Part shown: positions 7,560-38,235 of the stretch, in pieces
How positions within the stretch are numbered: position 1 is the first letter of the stretch
Layout: every line of letters begins with the position of its first letter
The notes under the pieces: model-generated
Seen by the model: only the letters and a program-made list of their open reading frames with translations
Told to the model about the DNA's origin: nothing
Databases searched by the model: none
Assembly: GCA_944386985.1 (NCBI GenBank)
Contig: CALXDD010000003.1
Location: 62,001 to 126,000, forward strand
Source: an uncultured Oscillospiraceae bacterium
GTDB taxonomy: Bacteria; Bacillota; Clostridia; Oscillospirales; Oscillospiraceae
Direction of reading: 5' to 3'
Length of the DNA stretch: 64,000 nucleotides
Position numbers and translations under genes: made by a program

Positions 7560-8033
7560 TTTTTCTCCTCCATTCTTTCAATTCGATCGGGGCTTTCATG
7601 TTAAAATTCTACAATGATCATCTCCTTCCATTTGAGACGGTGTTCCGCGGAGTTCATGAAATTTTGTGGAATATTTTGTTTGAAAAATATTCTTGAAAAA
7701 TAAGTGAACAAAAATCACAAACACATTGAAAGAAATATTATCTTGAACTCAAAGAAGAATTATGGTAATATTATGGCATAAGTTTTGCGTTTTTGTTGAA
7801 TATTGGATTATAATGTCATATTAAACTGTATTTGCGGAAAATGCATCTGAAATTATTCCCGAAGTTTTTGCAACGAAAATATGAATTTTTTATTATGAAT
7901 TTTTCACAATGACGGAAGTCGGAAGTTGTCGAAAATTTCTGCTTGCCCGGCGAGAAAAAGACGGATTGTAAAAAATTTTGCCCGCAGTCAATTTGCGATT
8001 ATTATTTTTTTACAAAGCAAAGGAGGTATGTAT
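7560..8033. promoter_or_regulatory. AT-rich divergent regulatory region
   Basis: This 474-base spacer between the MFS gene (minus) and the PucR-type gene (plus) has no gene. It is far more AT-rich than the rest of the window, especially 7670-7900, with many short A and T tracts. It must hold the promoters of both transcripts and presumably the regulator's operators. One TGTCGAA heptamer (7927-7933) resembles a Spo0A box, but a single short match in AT-rich DNA is not convincing. I could not define a confident -35/-10 pair. Confidence 0.5.
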
Positions 8034-25931: not shown

Positions 25932-25966
25932 TACCCGCTGGAAGGCCCTTGCCAGCGGGTATTTTT
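25932..25966 (+). terminator. Terminator of the ABC importer operon
   Basis: A 10-bp stem (25932-25941 with 25952-25961) and TTTTT right after it. It lies 15 bases beyond the last ATPase gene. Confidence 0.8.
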
Positions 25967-25972: not shown

Positions 25973-26079
25973 AAATGGGCAGAGATAGGGATTGATTTTC
26001 CAGGCTGGGCATGATACCCTCAGGGAAAGAATTGCTATAGACGATGCATGTGTATGGTGCGCCGGAGAGGAGAGCCGAT

Positions 26080-28954: not shown

Positions 28955-29159
28955 TCCAATTTTTTCACGGTTTGAAAAAACTCCCCTGCGTTTCGCTGCC
29001 TTTTCGGTCTGTTTTCGAGACTGGTATCCGCTCCCTTTCCAAAGTCCCCTTTTTTTGCAGCGGTCTGCCGCCGCTTTTTTTGACGGAAACAGGAGACAGT
29101 AAAGAGTGCCGCCGAGAGAGACAGAACGCGGCCATGTTTTGAGAGGGGGGATTGAATGG

Positions 29160-30221
29160 ATGAAAAGACAAAAACAACACAAACCATGGAGGACCCGCGC
29201 CGGAGCGCTGCTGCTGGGACTGGCAATGTTTTCCAGTATGGGCGGCGTGGCGCGGGGCGCCTCAGGAGCCGGTGAGGGTAGTATGCCCAAAACATTGATT
29301 CCCATTGGCCACACCGTCGGAATCAAGCTGTTTTCCGAGGGCGTGCTGGTAGTGGGCCTGTCCGAACTGGAGACAAACAAAGGAACCGCGGCCCCTGCCA
29401 AGGACTGCGGGCTGAAGGTGGGCGACTTTATTCTGGAGGCCGACGGCAAAGAGGTGGAGAGTACGGAGCACTTTCAGAGCCTGATGGCAGCCGCAGGAGG
29501 CGAAGAAACCTGCCTGACTGTCAAACGAAACGGGAAGACCATGGAGCTGGAGGTATCCGGCGTCCAGTGCAGTGACGGCGCCTGGCGTCTTGGCGCCTGG
29601 GTCCGGGACAGTCTGGCGGGCATCGGTACCATGACCTTCTATGATCCGGAAAGCGGCGTCTTTGCCACTCTGGGTCACGGCATCAACGATGTGGATACCG
29701 GCCAGCTGATGACCCTGGACGTGGGTTCCATCATGGGTTCCACAGTGAAAGCGGTGCAGAAAGGCGTATCCGGTCAGCCTGGGGAACTGCGGGGCGATTT
29801 TGACATGAGCGGTGATTTAGGCGATCTCTATGCCAATACCGCCTGCGGTGTATTTGGTACAATGGACAGCTGTCCTATGGCGGCCAACAGCAAGGCAATA
29901 GAAGTGGCCCGGCCCGATCAGGTGCGCAAGGGCAGTGCGGAGATCCTGGCCAACATCAGCGGCGACCAAGTGGAGCGCTATCAGGTGGAGATCACCAAGA
30001 TCTGCAGCGGGTCCGGCGATACCCAGAATTTTATTATTAAAGTAACGGACCCGAAGCTGTTGGAGGCAACCGGCGGTATTGTGCAGGGAATGTCCGGGTC
30101 GCCGGTGATCCAGGACGGCAGATTGATTGGAGCGGTGACGCACGTCATGGTGGACGACCCAACCAGCGGATATGGTATATTTATTGAAAACATGTTGAAC
30201 GCTGCCGGACTGTCCGGCTAA
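29160..30221 (+). CDS. spoIVB: SpoIVB sporulation serine peptidase
   Basis: A 353-residue secreted/anchored peptidase that in sporulating Bacillota is made in the forespore and triggers pro-sigma-K processing. After an N-terminal membrane segment (about 12-34) comes a PDZ domain (about 70-140, with KDCGLKVGDFILEADGKEVE). The catalytic domain has His in GHGINDVDTG and Ser in GIVQGMSGSPVIQDG, the S55-peptidase motifs. It is shorter than the B. subtilis protein (about 426 residues), mostly before the PDZ domain. The start at 29160 follows GAGAGGGGGGATTGA. Placement directly before spo0A is the canonical arrangement. Confidence 0.92.
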   Translation: MKRQKQHKPWRTRAGALLLGLAMFSSMGGVARGASGAGEGSMPKTLIPIGHTVGIKLFSEGVLVVGLSELETNKGTAAPAKDCGLKVGDFILEADGKEVESTEHFQSLMAAAGGEETCLTVKRNGKTMELEVSGVQCSDGAWRLGAWVRDSLAGIGTMTFYDPESGVFATLGHGINDVDTGQLMTLDVGSIMGSTVKAVQKGVSGQPGELRGDFDMSGDLGDLYANTACGVFGTMDSCPMAANSKAIEVARPDQVRKGSAEILANISGDQVERYQVEITKICSGSGDTQNFIIKVTDPKLLEATGGIVQGMSGSPVIQDGRLIGAVTHVMVDDPTSGYGIFIENMLNAAGLSG

Positions 30222-30294: not shown

Positions 30295-30331
30295 TTCGAC
30301 AAAAATGGAAAATATTGGATATTTTGTCGAA
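30295..30331. promoter_or_regulatory. Inverted pair of Spo0A boxes in the spo0A promoter
   Basis: TTCGACA at 30295-30301 and TGTCGAA at 30325-30331 are two perfect copies of the 0A box (consensus TGNCGAA) in opposite orientation, 30 bases apart centre to centre. A 6-of-7 match (TTCGACT) follows at 30366-30372. They lie 170-205 bases upstream of the spo0A start, consistent with autoregulation. Confidence 0.7.
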
Positions 30332-30500: not shown

Positions 30501-31256
30501 ATGGAGAATCGGATAAAAGTCATCATAGCGGATGGGAACGAGGAGTACCGGAGCCTGCTGACGGAAGCTGTGGAGGAGTCGGGAGAGTTCCAGGTAGTGG
30601 GCCAGGCCGGCGACGGACAGACAGCGGTGGAGCTGGCCCGGCAGACCGGGGCGGAGCTGATGCTGCTGGAGCTGGTTTTGCCGGGACTGGACGGCCTGGG
30701 CGTGCTCTCCAAGCTCAAGGAGATGGACAATGCGCCCCAGGTGATCGCCATGTCCGCCTTCTGCAGCCAGCAGACAGTGGCCATGGCGGGGATGCTGGGC
30801 GCCGCCTATTTCATGGCAAAGCCCTGTGATGAAAGCGCCCTGCTGGAGCGGATGCGGGCGGTGGTTTCCCTGACGGAGGAGGAACAGGAGGATCACGCCC
30901 CGGGGCTTGAGAGCCTGGTGACCTCTATCATCCACGAGGTGGGGGTCCCGGCGCACATCAAGGGGTATCAATATGTGCGCGAGGCCATTATGATCGCCGT
31001 GGAGGATATGGAGGTCATCAACTCGGTGACGAAGGTGCTCTACCCCGAGGTGGCCAAGCGGTATGGTACGACTCCGTCCCGGGTGGAACGGGCGATCCGC
31101 CACGCCATTGAAGTGGCCTGGGACCGGGGCGATCTGGAGACGCTGCAGCGGTTCTTTGGCTACACTGTCTCCAATGCCAAGGGAAAACCCACCAATTCAG
31201 AATTTATCGCTATGATTTCCGACCGAATCCGGCTGCAGCTGAAGGTCAAGCGCTGA
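30501..31256 (+). CDS. spo0A: Spo0A, sporulation master regulator with altered receiver
   Basis: A 251-residue response regulator. The C-terminal Spo0A-specific DNA-binding domain (about 145-251: [20 protein letters not shown], then [20 protein letters not shown]) is well conserved. In the receiver, the acidic pair normally Asp-Asp is Asp11-Gly12 (IIADGNEE). The phosphoacceptor Asp (B. subtilis D56, in LVLDIIMPHLDG) is Glu57 ([11 protein letters not shown]). The conserved Lys (AKPCD) remains. Codons read GGG and GAG, so this is not a translation artefact. Glu can mimic aspartyl phosphate, so the protein may be constitutively active or phosphorylation-independent; that is inference. I start at the ATG at 30501, 10 bases after AAAAGGA. 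It is preceded by spoIVB and 0A boxes, so it is the canonical locus. Confidence 0.92.
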
Positions 31257-33320: not shown

Positions 33321-34532
33321 TCAGCGGCACACCACAGGAAGCCGGTGTCCCAGCCCGGCAAGAAACTCGTTGGTGAGGATGCCGCACTTTTGGGCGACCT
33401 CCTCCGCCCGGATCTCCCTGCCGCCGTCCTCGCCAATGAGGGTCACCGTGTCCCCAGCCACTGCCTGTGGGACGGCGGTTACATCCACCAGCAGCTGGTC
33501 CATGCACATCCGCCCCACCATGGGGCAACGGCGTCCGGAGAGGAGCACCTCCCCGCCCCGCTGGGTGAGACAGGCGGGGAGACCGTCGGCGTAGCCAATG
33601 GTCACCACCGCCAGCCGGGTGTCCCGCGCCGCCTGAAAGGCAAGGCCATAGCCTGCCCGTTCTCCGGCGGAGATGGTCCGCACCGAGGCCGCCCGGGCCC
33701 GGAGGGACAGCACCGGCCGGAGGGGCAGAGGACAGGGGACGCAGCCGGGGCTGCTTTGAACGCCGTAGAGGGCGATGCCCGCCCGGGCGTAGGCAGAGCC
33801 GGGCCGGGGCGGCAGGGTCCAGATCCCGGCGCTGGCCTGGAGGTGGACGGCTCCCGGGTTCAGTCCGGCGTTCCGGATGCATTGGACCGCATCCTCAAAC
33901 AGAGCCAATTGGCGTCGGGCAAAGGCAGCGTCCCGGGGAATTGGACTGTCCGCGGTGCAAAGGTGGGAGAATACCCCCTCCACCTGGAGATGAGGCAGGT
34001 GGAAGAGGGTCAGGAGGGCCTCCTTATCCTCCGCCGGAATGCCCAGCCGGTGCATCCCGGTGTCTAAGGCCAGGTGGACCCGGAGAGGAATGCGCTGGGC
34101 GGAGAGTGCCTCACCGTGGGAGAGATCCGCCACCGCCTGTTGGAGACGAAAGTGTTGGAGAAGGGGGACCTCCTCCGGCGGGGTATAGCCCAGAATCAGG
34201 ATGGTTCCCCGGACGCCGCGGCGTCGAAGGGCGATCCCCTCGGAGAGACAGGCCACGGCAAAGGCATCCACTCCTTCCCGCTGGAGGGCCAGGGACAGGG
34301 GAACCGCACCGTGTCCGTAGGCGTCTGCCTTTACCACCGCCATCAGACGGCACCCGGCGGGGAGAGCGTTCTGGAGGACCTGGGCGTTGTGACAGGCGGC
34401 ATCCAGATTTGTTTCCCGCCAGGCCCGGCCGGTGGGGGAGACGCGCAGACCCTCCAAGGGCCGGGGGAGGCGGCGGAGGGCGGAGAAGAGGGAGAGGGAA
34501 GAATGTCGGGCGGGAAGGAGCGCTTCTGTCAT
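33321..34532 (-). CDS. vanT: Alanine/serine racemase of the vanG-type cluster (VanT-like)
   Basis: A 403-residue PLP-dependent racemase. The PLP-Lys motif is AVVKADAYGHGA; the second catalytic Tyr is within ERAGYGLAF, and IGYADGLPA and MVGRMCMDQ are further family sites. About 37 extra residues precede the usual start (RAWRETNLDAACHN). In vanC/E/G-type operons VanT supplies D-serine and carries an N-terminal multi-helix membrane domain; that domain is absent here, so this is only the catalytic half. The ATG overlaps the vanXY stop by 4 bases. It could be an ordinary alanine racemase recruited to the operon; context favours D-Ser supply. Confidence 0.75.
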   Translation of the reverse strand: MTEALLPARHSSLSLFSALRRLPRPLEGLRVSPTGRAWRETNLDAACHNAQVLQNALPAGCRLMAVVKADAYGHGAVPLSLALQREGVDAFAVACLSEGIALRRRGVRGTILILGYTPPEEVPLLQHFRLQQAVADLSHGEALSAQRIPLRVHLALDTGMHRLGIPAEDKEALLTLFHLPHLQVEGVFSHLCTADSPIPRDAAFARRQLALFEDAVQCIRNAGLNPGAVHLQASAGIWTLPPRPGSAYARAGIALYGVQSSPGCVPCPLPLRPVLSLRARAASVRTISAGERAGYGLAFQAARDTRLAVVTIGYADGLPACLTQRGGEVLLSGRRCPMVGRMCMDQLLVDVTAVPQAVAGDTVTLIGEDGGREIRAEEVAQKCGILTNEFLAGLGHRLPVVCR

Positions 34533-35272
34533 GCGGGGTCCCCCCAGACGGTGAGGAAGAACCCATTCTGGTTGTCCCCGGAGATCTGCCAGCAGCCCTT
34601 GGGGATCTCCAGCTCCACCGCCTCCCCCGGGCAGGGGAGATAGGAGACGGTGACGGACCGGCCATTTGCCAGATGGAGGGTCCGGGGCTGCTCCTGGACA
34701 AAGGGGCGGTATTCCTCCAGACAGAGGTCATGCTCCTCCATCAGCGTGGCGTGGGGGGCGCCGACGTAGCGGAAATGCCAGGGCTCCTCGCTGATACCGG
34801 TGAGGGCCTCCTTTTCCCGCCGGTACCGCTGAAGAAAGCCGTAGCGGGCGGCGCAGCGGCGGAACTCACCGCACACCCCGCTGGAGGGAAAATTGGGGCG
34901 GATGAAGTCGATGACGGGGGCGGCCTTCCCAAGATCGATGGCCAGCCCCGTCTGGTGCTCGCTGCAGCCCGGCAGGGCCACATACTGCCGGGTGAAGGCG
35001 GGGCCTTCCTTTTCCATGGTATCGTCCCAGATGGCCTGCTGCTCCCGCTGGCTGCGCCAGCCGGAGACGGGGACAATCCGCCCCCGGCCCCCCACCGCCT
35101 GGATGCAAGCCGAAAGCAGTCCGGCGGTCCGGCGCTCCAGGAGGATCTGGGGAAACCGGTCGTCGGCGGGGACCAGGCCTTCCGGTTCAGGTCCCTGGAG
35201 GGGATGACGGGCATTGACGAGAACCAGGGGGCCGTTATGGATCTGGCGGCGGTGCAAAGTCAGCGTGCCCAT
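34529..35272 (-). CDS. vanXY: D,D-peptidase VanXY/VanY type
   Basis: A 247-residue zinc D,D-peptidase of the M15B family. SEHQTGLAIDLG gives the SxHxxGxAxD zinc motif and EPWHFRYVG the second His with the catalytic Glu. The preceding PVSGWRSQREQQAIW is the VanY/VanXY substrate region. No signal peptide or anchor, so it is cytosolic as VanXY proteins are. It would remove precursors ending in D-Ala so that only D-Ser-ended wall precursors remain. It overlaps the ligase gene by 13 bases and the racemase gene by 4. Confidence 0.85.
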   Translation of the reverse strand: MGTLTLHRRQIHNGPLVLVNARHPLQGPEPEGLVPADDRFPQILLERRTAGLLSACIQAVGGRGRIVPVSGWRSQREQQAIWDDTMEKEGPAFTRQYVALPGCSEHQTGLAIDLGKAAPVIDFIRPNFPSSGVCGEFRRCAARYGFLQRYRREKEALTGISEEPWHFRYVGAPHATLMEEHDLCLEEYRPFVQEQPRTLHLANGRSVTVSYLPCPGEAVELEIPKGCWQISGDNQNGFFLTVWGDPA

Positions 35273-36306
35273 TGTGACACCCCCGTTTCCAAAATCCGGT
35301 CAATGAGCTGGGGGAAGGAGAGGCCGATGCCCGCCATCATACTGGGGTAGCGGCTGTGAGGGGTGAAGCCGGGTATGGTGTTTACCTCGTTGAAGAGGAT
35401 ACGGCCCTCCGGTGTCAGAAAGAAGTCTACCCTGGCAAAGACCTGGCAGTCCAGGGCCCGGAAGAGCACCTTAGCAGTCTCCTGAATCTCCCGGGCCTTC
35501 TCCGGGGCGATCCGGGCGGGACAGTGGATGGAGGAGGTCTTCAGGGTGTACTTTTCCTCAAAGTCGAAGAACCCCTGACTCAGCGCGATCTCGTCCACCA
35601 GTCCCACCGTCAGCGTCTCCCGGCCCAGCACGGCGCAGCCCACCTCGAAGCCGGATACCGCCTCCTCCAGCAAGATCTCCCGGTCGTTGGCGAAGGCCAG
35701 CTCCACTGCCGCTTTCAGTTCCTCAGACTTCTCCACCCGGGTGACGCCGAAGGAGGAGCCGGAGCGGACGGGCTTGACGAAAAGGGGATAGCCCAGGGAC
35801 TCCCCGGCGGCGGCCATGTCCGAAAGGGGAGCGCCCCGGCGGAAGAGAGTGCTGCGGGGCACCGGGATGCCCGCCAGGGCGGCCAGCTTGTGGGCCCGGT
35901 CCTTGTCCATGCACAGAGCACTGGAGAGAGCGCCGCAGCCGATAATGGGGACCCCCGCCAGCTCCAAAAGGCCCTGGACGGTGCCGTCCTCCCCATTTTT
36001 GCCGTGGAGCACCGGGAAGGCGGCGTCAAAGGAGAGGCGGCGGTCAGAGCCGTCCAGCAGCAAAAGATGGCTGCGTCCCCGGTCCAGGCTCAGGGTGCAG
36101 GGAGTGCAGCGGTCCTGGCACCAGGTGCCGTTCTCCAGCCGGGAGAGGGGACCGTCGTAGAAAAGCCACTTGCCGTCCCGGGTGATCCCCACCAGCAGAG
36201 GAGTGTGCCGATTGGTGTCCATGTGGGTGAGGATGCCGTAGGCGGACTGGAGAGACACGCCGTACTCCGTGGAGCAGCCGCCGAACAACACCAAAATCTG
36301 TTTCAT
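35260..36306 (-). CDS. vanG: D-alanine-D-serine ligase, VanG type
   Basis: A 348-residue ATP-grasp ligase. ILVLFGGCSTEYGVSL is the N-terminal signature; HGKNGEDGTVQGLLELAG and FVKPVRSGSSFGV are nucleotide-binding parts, and FNEVNTIPGFTPHSRYPSM is the C-terminal Mg site. The omega-loop region reads DFEEKYTLKTSSIHCPA, which is the VanC/E/G style rather than that of Ddl or VanA. Products would be D-Ala-D-Ser wall precursors with reduced glycopeptide binding. The start follows AGGAGGTCTTTTCT. Upstream vanR/vanS and downstream vanXY and racemase confirm the cluster type. Confidence 0.85.
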   Translation of the reverse strand: MKQILVLFGGCSTEYGVSLQSAYGILTHMDTNRHTPLLVGITRDGKWLFYDGPLSRLENGTWCQDRCTPCTLSLDRGRSHLLLLDGSDRRLSFDAAFPVLHGKNGEDGTVQGLLELAGVPIIGCGALSSALCMDKDRAHKLAALAGIPVPRSTLFRRGAPLSDMAAAGESLGYPLFVKPVRSGSSFGVTRVEKSEELKAAVELAFANDREILLEEAVSGFEVGCAVLGRETLTVGLVDEIALSQGFFDFEEKYTLKTSSIHCPARIAPEKAREIQETAKVLFRALDCQVFARVDFFLTPEGRILFNEVNTIPGFTPHSRYPSMMAGIGLSFPQLIDRILETGVSQWAR

Positions 36307-36329
36307 AGAAAAGACCTCCTGAAAAGGCG

Positions 36330-36376
36330 AATGCGCCCTGTTTTGCTGTAAAAATCATAGCAAAACAGGGCGCATT
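36330..36376. promoter_or_regulatory. Strong hairpin between vanS and vanG
   Basis: A perfect 18-bp stem (36330-36347 with 36359-36376), loop of 11. It lies only 24 bases before the vanG start, so there is no room for a promoter between them. On the minus strand only a short T-run follows (TTTT), so it may be a partial terminator or attenuator setting vanG expression. Confidence 0.6.
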
Positions 36377-36425
36377 TTGTTTTCGCTTTCTCTTTCGCCT
36401 TTCCTGAGAAAGTCTTGGGAAAATC

Positions 36426-37520
36426 TTACGAATTTCTTGCGGCGGGCAGCGTAACAGTAAAGATGATCTGCTCCTCGGCGCTTCGGGCGGTGATGGTGCC
36501 GCCGTGGGCCTCCACGATTTCCTTGGCAATGGCGAGACCAAGGCCTGCGTTGCCGGTGCCGGTGCTCCGGGAGGTGTCCAGACGGAAAAACTGCTCGAAC
36601 ATCCGTGAGAGTTTCTCCGGAGGGATGGTCCGGCCGGCGTTTTGGAAGGTGAGGACGATCGTCTGGCCCTGCCGCCGGCCCTCCACCTGAATGGCGGTGC
36701 CGGGGTAGCCGTAGTGGAGGGCGTTGTTGAGGAGGTTGTCGAAGACCCGGGCCATTTTATCCGCGTCGCATATTGCGGTGAGATCATCGGCTAAGGCCAG
36801 GGCACAGGACATGTCCTTTTGCTGCAGCACCGGGGCAAACTCACTGCACATCTGCTCCAGCATCCGCTTGAGATCCACTGTCCGGCACTCCAGCTCCAGA
36901 TGGGTCAGGCTGAAGCGGGTGATGTCGAAAAATTCATTCACCAAATCCTCCAGCCGCTCCGCCTTCTCCAGTGCCACCCCGGTGTACCGGGCCCGGAGCT
37001 GAGGGGAGAGCTGGGGCTCATCCCGCAGAAGAGTGAGATAGCCGATGACGCTGGTGAGAGGCGTTTTCAGATCGTGGGCCAGATAGACCACCAGGTCGTT
37101 TTTTCGCTGCTCCGCGTCCCGGGCCGCCCGGGCGTTCCGAAGAGCCTGTTCCCGCACCAGGTTCAGCTGATCCTCCGCCTGCTCCATTCCCTCCGGCAGG
37201 TGGATAGGCTCCTCGCCGGGGTGGGCCAGTTTCTCCGCCCCCTCCAGCAGCAGTGCCAGATTTTCCACTGGTCTTGCGATAAAGAAATAGCTGATGACCA
37301 GCCAACCCGCCAGCACCACTGCGGCTCCTACAAAAAAGAGGTTTTGCTCCACCCAATTCAAAAGCCGATAGAGAAAGGTGTCGTACCAGGTGATGGAGGC
37401 GCAGATGACGATACAGACCAGGGCGATGAGGACCACCGCCACCGCCCATCCGAAAAGGGACAAAAGATAGCTGCCCCACACCTGCAGAGCGGTCTGCCGC
37501 TCCCGGCGGGGACGTCTCAT
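36426..37520 (-). CDS. vanS: VanS-type sensor histidine kinase
   Basis: A 364-residue membrane kinase with two helices (about 20-43 and 63-82) enclosing a short outside loop, then a HAMP-like linker. The HisKA box is VVYLAHDLKTPLTSVIGYL with the phospho-His, identical in style to VanS. The ATPase N box is NLLNNALHYG and the G box GLGLAIAKEIVEAHGG. It would detect glycopeptide or wall stress and phosphorylate VanR. I start at ATG 37520, 10 bases past the vanR stop; an in-frame TTG at 37538 is an alternative. Confidence 0.85.
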   Translation of the reverse strand: MRRPRRERQTALQVWGSYLLSLFGWAVAVVLIALVCIVICASITWYDTFLYRLLNWVEQNLFFVGAAVVLAGWLVISYFFIARPVENLALLLEGAEKLAHPGEEPIHLPEGMEQAEDQLNLVREQALRNARAARDAEQRKNDLVVYLAHDLKTPLTSVIGYLTLLRDEPQLSPQLRARYTGVALEKAERLEDLVNEFFDITRFSLTHLELECRTVDLKRMLEQMCSEFAPVLQQKDMSCALALADDLTAICDADKMARVFDNLLNNALHYGYPGTAIQVEGRRQGQTIVLTFQNAGRTIPPEKLSRMFEQFFRLDTSRSTGTGNAGLGLAIAKEIVEAHGGTITARSAEEQIIFTVTLPAARNS

Positions 37521-37530
37521 TCCAGTCGGA

Positions 37531-38223
37531 TTACGCAATGGTATACCCCACCCCCCATACAGTTTTGATGAACTTGGGCTTCCGGCTGGGCTCGTGCATT
37601 TTCTCCCGCAGCCGGGCGATGTGGCTCATAACGGTATTGTTGCTGTCCATGTACCGCTCCCCCCACACCGCCTCGAACAGCTCCTCGCTGGACACCACCT
37701 GACCCTGGCGGCTGCAGAGGTGCCACAGGATAGAAAACTCCAGGGGAGTGAGAGAGAGTTCCTCCCCAAAAAGGACGCACTTGTGGGTGGCCTTGGAGAT
37801 CTGCAGGCCCCGGATGTCGTATTCCTCCAGGGCCTCCGGCTGGTGCTGGGGGTTGTAACGGGTGTAACGCCGCAGCTGAGTCTTCACCCGGGCCACCAAC
37901 TCCAGGGGATTGAAGGGTTTGGTGATGTAGTCGTCGGCCCCAAGGGTCAGTCCGGTGATCTTGTCCATATCCTCCACCTTGGCTGTCAGCATCAAAATAG
38001 GAAAGAGGTGGCGCTCCCGGATCTTCTGGCAGAGGGTGAAGCCGTCCAGGTCCGGCAGCATTACATCCAGAATGGCCAGATCCAGGGGCTGGTGTTCCAC
38101 GCAGGTCAGGGCCTCGGCAGCGGTGCCGAAGACATGGACGGTGTACCCCTCATTTTTCAGATAGACTGCCACCAGATTGGCAATGGCCTCTTCATCATCT
38201 ACAATTAATATATCTGTGCTCAT
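37531..38223 (-). CDS. vanR: VanR-type response regulator (OmpR family)
   Basis: A 230-residue regulator: receiver with DILIVDDEEAIANL, phospho-Asp in LAILDVMLPDLDGF and Lys in DDYITKPFNPLE; winged-helix DNA-binding domain from about residue 130 (LTPLEFSILWHLCSRQGQVV). The start at 38223 has GGAGCGCGGT upstream. It is the first gene of the van cluster and presumably activates vanG-vanXY-vanT with VanS. Confidence 0.85.
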   Translation of the reverse strand: MSTDILIVDDEEAIANLVAVYLKNEGYTVHVFGTAAEALTCVEHQPLDLAILDVMLPDLDGFTLCQKIRERHLFPILMLTAKVEDMDKITGLTLGADDYITKPFNPLELVARVKTQLRRYTRYNPQHQPEALEEYDIRGLQISKATHKCVLFGEELSLTPLEFSILWHLCSRQGQVVSSEELFEAVWGERYMDSNNTVMSHIARLREKMHEPSRKPKFIKTVWGVGYTIA

Positions 38224-38235
38224 ACCGCGCTCCAT

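Follow-up and report, generated by a model that had tools for sequence, protein, structure and literature searches.

The Spo0A of Oscillospiraceae: a receiver without its second acidic pocket residue and with recurrent Asp/Glu exchange at the phosphoacceptor position

According to PMC11210211, phosphorylation of Spo0A is the gate through which all endospore formers enter sporulation. The 64,000-nucleotide stretch of an uncultured Oscillospiraceae genome analysed in this work (the window) encodes a Spo0A with Glu at the phosphoacceptor position, which raises the question of how such a protein could be controlled and whether it is an exception within its family.

The spo0A locus and its receiver pocket

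Positions 30501-31256 of the window, read on the forward strand, translate into a 251-aa Spo0A. The locus has the following features:

29106..30221, + strand: spoIVB, which precedes spo0A; its true start is perhaps further downstream (TIGR02860, 374 bits)
30501..31256, + strand: spo0A, encoding 251 aa with a receiver and a Spo0A_C DNA-binding domain; the sole Spo0A found in the genome
30519..30854, + strand: receiver domain, residues 7-118, a pseudo-receiver by residue content (PF00072 match, AF2 pLDDT and residue comparison)
30918..31229, + strand: Spo0A_C DNA-binding domain, strongly conserved (PF08769, 156.9 bits)

Both the Spo0A_C domain (Pfam, residues 140-243) and the NCBI equivalog model TIGR02875 (spore_0_A; 285.4 bits against a cut-off of 200) place the protein in Spo0A. 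Its AlphaFold model has a mean pLDDT of 89 and a pTM of 0.54, with block-mean pLDDT values of 91-98 across residues 11-120, and the structures nearest to the model include the Spo0A receivers 1qmp and 5wq0 and the DNA-binding domains 1fc3 and 1lq1. When the whole genome (2.99 Mb, 83 contigs, 95.5% complete) was searched with PF08769 for a second Spo0A, the gene adjoining spoIVB gave the one match, a point judged for linkage in this genome only; each of 11 genomes of the genus likewise has one PF08769 match at E <= 1e-60. The first-pass annotation, made from the window alone, had taken the gene for the canonical spoIVB-linked Spo0A and not a paralogue, and these results agree with it; the second canonical copy that it had named as a refuting find was not found in this genome. 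Activation by phosphorylation at a conserved Asp, by contrast, does not describe the window protein, in which residue 57 is Glu. The sequence thus identifies an orthologue of Spo0A to which the known activation mechanism is not transferable as such.

Elsewhere in the window, the reverse strand at 33321-38235 carries Pfam matches for an alanine racemase, a VanY carboxypeptidase, a D-Ala ligase and a HisKA/HATPase sensor, together with a VanR-type regulator (NF033117, 389.6 bits, cut-off 350), in the gene order of a van-type cell-wall cluster.

The pocket of the window protein was compared with that of its family, by which we mean Oscillospiraceae as read in this analysis. The positions of interest are identified through the residue numbering of B. 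subtilis Spo0A and CheY:

30531..30533, + strand: Asp11 (DD1), kept; Asp in 119/124 family rows
30534..30536, + strand: Gly12 (DD2), pocket Asp lost, codon GGG; acidic in 0/124 family rows
30540..30542, + strand: Glu14, possible substitute carboxylate; acidic in 114/124 family rows
30669..30671, + strand: Glu57 in place of the phosphoacceptor Asp, codon GAG; family Asp 102, Glu 21, Gly 1 of 124
30753..30755, + strand: Ser85 (Thr/Ser switch position), kept; Ser or Thr in 120/124 family rows
30819..30821, + strand: Lys107 (conserved pocket Lys), kept; Lys 122, Arg 2 of 124 family rows
30825..30827, + strand: Cys109 (K+2), KPC in place of KPF; Cys in 108/124 family rows

Loci for comparison were drawn from 60 near relatives, 11 genomes of the genus and 140 family genomes, a Spo0A being matched at E <= 1e-60 in 116 of the 140; the best 80 of 590 named loci were added. 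The alignment of 235 loci held 125 family orthologues, that is 124 distinct sequences, since L183 and L186 (both from G085) are identical as aligned and were counted once; a fragment from G158 was left out. Nine second or lower-scoring Spo0A-like rows (L206-L208 and L210-L215) were excluded from the 124; DD2 is acidic in two of them, L212 and L215, and non-acidic in the remaining seven, one of which, L208, carries Glu57. L212 (G012:C8:47604-48353) is an additional, distant Spo0A-like gene that retains the acidic pocket and has Asp as its acceptor; the main Spo0A of that genome has Glu, and L212 could be acquired or a contamination. Weaker Spo0A_C matches only were obtained in the family genomes G018, G079, G138 and G142, several as two or three pieces on separate contigs.

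Both residues reported by the first-pass annotation, Glu57 at the phosphoacceptor and Gly12 in the acidic pocket, were borne out. DD2 binds the metal directly in ordinary receivers (PMC12632262), and by the residue criterion of Bourret et al. (2025), a PF00072 domain without key residues among the five catalytic ones, the window receiver counts as a pseudo-receiver, as DD2 and the acceptor Asp are both absent; that it takes part in no phosphotransfer is a prediction. We considered Gly12 as a lineage-specific change and rejected it, since position 12 is non-acidic in every family row (Ala 51, Ser 24, Pro 16, Gly 12, Thr 11 and others 10). None of the 124 family Spo0As keeps all five catalytic residues. 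Among the best 80 of the 590 named loci, DD2 is acidic in 39, a group defined by that residue, and all 39 carry the five catalytic residues with no Glu acceptor (0/39); the acceptor in the other 41, some of which come from the same genomes as family rows, is Asp in 32 and Glu in nine. From the 23 genomes of other families of the order, 20 Spo0As were included (all but those of G040, G046 and G053); eight of the 20 have all five catalytic residues and the others lack at least one, with Asn as the acceptor in four cases, Glu in two and Ser in one. The loss of the pocket is therefore complete across the sampled family and patchy across the order. As to whether both replacements are clade-wide, as had been proposed for checking, the non-acidic DD2 is (124/124), whereas Glu57 (21/124) is not and recurs.

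Other pocket positions differ between the family and the DD2-acidic group of 39 among the best 80 of 590 named loci. The K+2 residue is Cys in 108/124 and Phe in 4/124 of the family versus Phe in 37/39 of that group; residue 60 is Leu in 118/124 versus Met in 38/39; Phe at T+2 is found in 112/124 versus 6/39, Pro at D+4 in 61/124 versus 39/39, and Ala or Gly at T+1 in 68/124 versus 39/39. Arg17 is present in 93/124 family rows. Positions K+2, T+1 and D+4 are among those reported as shifted in pseudo-receivers (PMC12632262). Judged by its residues, the family pocket is remodelled, not eroded.

The remodelling is confined to Spo0A within this genome, as far as its sequence tells. Among 38 other REC matches, the acidic pair is kept in 35 of the 37 with a visible DD region and the acceptor Asp in 36 of 38, the exceptions being L263 and the sub-threshold L274. 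A general decay of two-component systems in the genome was accordingly rejected, nearly all other receivers being canonical. L263 (G000:C26:5483-5815, - strand) is a degenerate receiver with the pair EG and an Ala acceptor, and it adjoins an intact response regulator and a kinase. Among three Glu57 siblings, dN/dS is 0.10-0.20 for the Spo0A receiver and 0.012-0.026 for the DNA-binding domain, values which indicate that the receiver is under purifying selection.

Recurrent exchange of Asp and Glu at position 57

On an IQ-TREE tree made with columns 12 and 57 masked, the fewest Asp/Glu changes that account for the family are 13, with Asp at the root, and 40 bootstrap FastTrees gave 13-16; the IQ-TREE tree is weak in places (63/133 inner branches open), so that the exact number is soft. 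Well-placed changes include L011 (Glu) beside L010 (Asp) with a support of 100, L124 beside L019 (94) and L118 beside L114 (91), and both residues occur within single genera in the pairs G009/G003, G030/G149 and G157/G069 (Asp first). The only non-acidic replacement in the family is Gly57 in row L201. Of about 14 changes at this site, 13 are thus to the other acid. Single-base change from an Asp codon yields Glu in 14-25% of amino-acid changes (kappa 4-1), under which (kappa 1-4) the probability of 13/14 is at most 1.6e-7 and that of 8/9 at most 1.1e-4. Acceptors in aspartate-less receivers have been reported as Glu 26%, Asn 16%, Ser 15%, Gly 11% and Ala 9% (PMC4395418), and with 26% as the expectation for Glu the same outcomes have probabilities of 2.6e-7 and 1.5e-4. 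The pattern at position 57 is, on this sequence comparison, more than chance: since replacements are almost always Glu, against both the mutational and the aspartate-less-receiver expectation, the site is held to a carboxylate. Glu57 is of less interest by itself than as one instance among many exchanges of Asp and Glu in a family that has lost the canonical pocket.

0A-box-like sites and an orphan kinase-like family

Two exact TTGTCGAA sites, which resemble the 0A-box consensus, lie upstream of spo0A:

30295..30302, - strand: 0A-box-like TTGTCGAA, exact match
30324..30331, + strand: 0A-box-like TTGTCGAA, exact match, inverted to the first

The two sites recur at unchanged positions in G004 and G006. 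The window holds seven TTGTCGAA sites against 1.19 expected, a number reached in 0/100 shuffles. The remaining exact sites are at 7926, 13334, 25965, 36736 and 62444, that at 25965 being about 70 bp ahead of an ORF at 26044. In every one of the 11 genus members, at least one TGTCGAA lies 167-222 bp ahead of spo0A; among loci with sufficient upstream sequence, the raw counts within 400 bp are 68/96 for loci with a non-acidic DD2 (the window locus entering twice) and 21/39 for those with an acidic one. Binding of the window Spo0A to 0A boxes is predicted from its conserved domain, and the excess of TTGTCGAA is an indirect indication.

The genome has 33 HATPase_c matches, three of them without a response regulator on their own contig: a MutL-like protein on C35, a GyrB-like protein on C8 and a kinase-like protein, P0002, on C11. 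A fourth HATPase protein (HATPase_c_2, 153 aa) is on C20, 3.8 kb from a response regulator. The kinase-like protein is located as follows:

G000:C11:1501-2325, - strand: P0002 (L266), 275 aa as kept, founder of a kinase-like family; outside the window

Its gene lies between a GAPDH gene and a tRNA methyltransferase-family (mnmA-like) gene, and it is an orphan in that C11 has no PF00072 match, the contig end being about 1.5 kb off. HATPase_c was matched in P0002 and HisKA was not found by Pfam. The acceptor column was placed with the kinase H-box motif; P0002 reads AAQLRCSL where ordinary kinases of the same alignment read SHELRTPL, and the acceptor His is replaced by Ala.

Relatives were sought with P0002 itself, with a profile A2 and with a profile A3 built from the region that precedes the ATPase domain. 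By the A2 score alone, ordinary kinases and the family could not be told apart; A3 discriminated better, most members scoring at least 66 bits and ordinary kinases at most 60, and the weaker A3 members of G044, G046 and G123 were accepted for their absent His and their tail. Across 65 loci, one taken from each genome, 63 have a residue other than His in the acceptor column, and the two His-bearing members (L350 and L351) belong to one genus whose Spo0As have Glu57; His was present in all 11 rows of the ordinary kinase control (10 genes, as L329 equals L365). In the N box, 61/65 members retain the second Asn. Longer members have, by eye, a PAS-like N-terminus, and the C-terminal tail is conserved and of ELSDxL type: ELSD occurs within the last 60 residues in 24/65 members and in a looser form in 38/65, with related tails in most others by eye; L327 and L357 are cut short.

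Counted by coverage (46 members to residue 260 or beyond with P0002, 17 more to 340 or beyond with A2 and 14 more with A3), the family is present in 77 of 80 Spo0A-bearing family genomes, with partial members in G035 and G021 and 19 of the 77 not read residue by residue; no member was found in the Spo0A-bearing G009 (of the same genus as the window), G029 and G094. A full Spo0A match was absent from 24 family genomes; 20 of these were checked and 16 lacked a Spo0A_C match, and four of the 16 (G080, G098, G114 and G135) have a member. The co-occurrence with Spo0A (77/80 versus 4/16) has a Fisher value of 1.2e-9, which becomes 2.4e-5 for genomes at least 85% complete (66/68 versus 2/7) and 1.9e-8 when members not read residue by residue are excluded (58/61 versus 4/16), all three uncorrected for relatedness. 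Among the 23 order-level genomes of other families, G037 and G044 have a member and G046 a weak one; none was seen in the eight with a five-residue Spo0A, and sensitivity in this order-level set was limited.

TGTCGAA occurs between -300 and +90 of the longest start in 26/65 member loci, where 100 dinucleotide shuffles gave 2.86 on average and 8 at most; it was found in 0/29 response-regulator genes of the genome, 0/11 ordinary kinase rows and 9/164 window tiles of 390 bp. Some of these upstream sites are common by descent among near relatives (L282-L284). In the genome of the window, the site upstream of P0002 stands immediately ahead of a TATAAT-like element. Because of the co-occurrence and the upstream 0A-box-like sites, the P0002 family is likely to be part of the Spo0A network, and it may bind Spo0A. 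The first-pass annotation had proposed a check for covariation with orphan kinases; the covariation seen here is with an orphan kinase-like family, most members of which lack the acceptor His.

Control of a pocket-less Spo0A and comparison with known systems

We consider it fairly probable, from the residue comparisons, that Spo0A is a pseudo-receiver throughout the family, not set by ordinary phosphotransfer, and that it is controlled by its amount, by a partner or by both. The receiver would keep its fold, the first acidic residue, the pocket Ser/Thr and Lys and a carboxylate at 57, with the metal-binding DD2 Asp gone. The carboxylate at 57 may act as a structural, charge-bearing element in place of a phosphate acceptor, probably pairing with Lys107 and the side chain at 85; if it is structural, Asp and Glu would be nearly interchangeable and Glu could have been fixed many times. 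Canonical Asp phosphorylation is impossible at 57 of the window protein. Spo0A activity could then be set by amount, through autoregulation via the two upstream 0A-box-like sites, and/or by a partner protein, for which the P0002 family is the best candidate. It is conceivable, though unlikely enough to be put forward only tentatively, that entry into sporulation in Oscillospiraceae runs through a "dead" pair, in which an orphan, largely His-less ATPase of the P0002 family switches the Spo0A pseudo-receiver by binding instead of by phosphate and Spo0A controls the gene of its partner. As a description of activation, phosphorylation of a conserved Asp does not apply to the window protein, and for the family as a whole it is doubtful.

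The near-universal Lys107 and Ser/Thr85, as a phosphorylatable site needs, and the Asp that is still in the majority at 57 (102/124) count against a pseudo-receiver, as does the conserved acid at 14, which could rebuild the metal site. These residues fit a pocket in which the metal acid has moved from 12 to Glu14, the Asp57 species being phosphorylated by orphan or cross-talking kinases and Glu57 being secondary; Glu or Asp at 14 in 114/124 of the family, against Glu in 11/39 DD2-acidic rows (best 80 of 590), adds to this. We nevertheless regard such a rebuilt pocket as improbable, since the Glu57 rows share the background of the Asp57 rows (Glu14 in 21/21 and Cys109 in 19/21), as if phosphorylation were irrelevant to both, Glu has been swapped in repeatedly, even between species of one genus, and the sole orphan kinase-like protein found in the genome is without an acceptor His. 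A constitutively active Spo0A, with Glu57 as a phosphomimic and sporulation controlled only by Spo0A expression or stability, is a little easier to entertain and still unlikely: Glu is the commonest replacement of the acceptor in receivers (26%, PMC4395418) and mimics phosphorylation in many regulators (PMC12632262), and the 0A-box-like sites upstream of spo0A would suit control of expression, but Glu and Asp alternate within a genus while spore genes are retained at similar rates, and the D-to-E change in Spo0A has been reported as insufficient for activation on its own (PMC4395418, citing Green 1991). Between the two ideas of the first-pass annotation, the pseudo-receiver gated by something else is thus the better one; Glu as a lineage-defining "always on" switch is unlikely alone, because there are at least about 13 recurrent Asp/Glu changes, differing within one genus.

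Loss of sporulation with a drifting Spo0A is very unlikely. Spore genes were sought in 80 family genomes: all 21 Glu57 genomes, the single Gly57 genome and 58 Asp57 genomes, the distinct Asp57 rows numbering 102. Lack of a SASP match in 4/21 and of SpoIVA in 2/21 Glu57 genomes would be in keeping with decay, as would the Gly57 genome, which has SpoIVA and no SASP match, and the record of Oscillibacter valericigenes as non-sporulating despite spo0A (PMC3558957). Nevertheless, SpoIVA was found in 19/21 Glu57 versus 56/58 Asp57 genomes and SASP in 17/21 versus 52/58, rates that are not clearly different (Fisher 0.29 and 0.44 for the SpoIVA and SASP comparisons), and purifying selection, an intact DNA-binding domain and replacements that are nearly all Glu argue against drift. 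That the residues reflect an assembly or sequencing error, or that a second canonical Spo0A is hidden, is barely credible. The genome is a draft, and the Glu57 genome G012 does carry L212 beside its main gene; against this, PF08769 matched once here and once at E <= 1e-60 in each of the 11 genus genomes, and a base-call error is unlikely because Gly12 and Glu57 recur in the separately assembled genomes of two other species of the genus, G006 (94% identical) and G004 (92%).

A family of gut bacteria has a Spo0A without the pocket and yet keeps its spore genes, so that the gate of sporulation may have been rebuilt without canonical phosphorylation. The control of pseudo-receivers has been termed a mystery (PMC12632262); the natural Asp/Glu pairs within a genus offer a means to test it, and the P0002 family is named here as a candidate partner. 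No prior report of such a Spo0A in Oscillospiraceae or Ruminococcaceae was found among the open-access matches listed, and the available parts of PMC6136694 and PMC7924749 contain nothing on these Spo0A residues. A review reports that the phosphorelay is absent in Ruminococcaceae (PMC11210211).

With the Spo0A of B. subtilis and C. difficile, the window protein shares a receiver joined to Spo0A_C, adjacency to spoIVB and upstream 0A-box-like sites; it differs from them in having no DD2 Asp, a Glu acceptor and KPC for KPF. P0002 resembles the orphan histidine kinases of sporulation (PMC11210211) in being an orphan in its own genome and in having an HATPase domain, and its family is unlike them in that 63/65 members lack the acceptor His. 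CmrT of Clostridioides difficile is also an atypical response regulator in a clostridial species, but it is not a Spo0A: it belongs to the OmpR family, and its operon also encodes a kinase and a normal regulator (PMC12632262, PMC12548384). With bacterial pseudo-receivers and aspartate-less receivers (PMC12632262, PMC4395418), the window protein has in common a non-acidic DD2, a Glu acceptor and altered D+4, T+1 and K+2 positions. Spo0A is not mentioned in PMC12632262 and appears twice in PMC4395418, for a mutant study. What sets the present case apart from these pseudo-receivers is that the protein is the master regulator of sporulation throughout a family.
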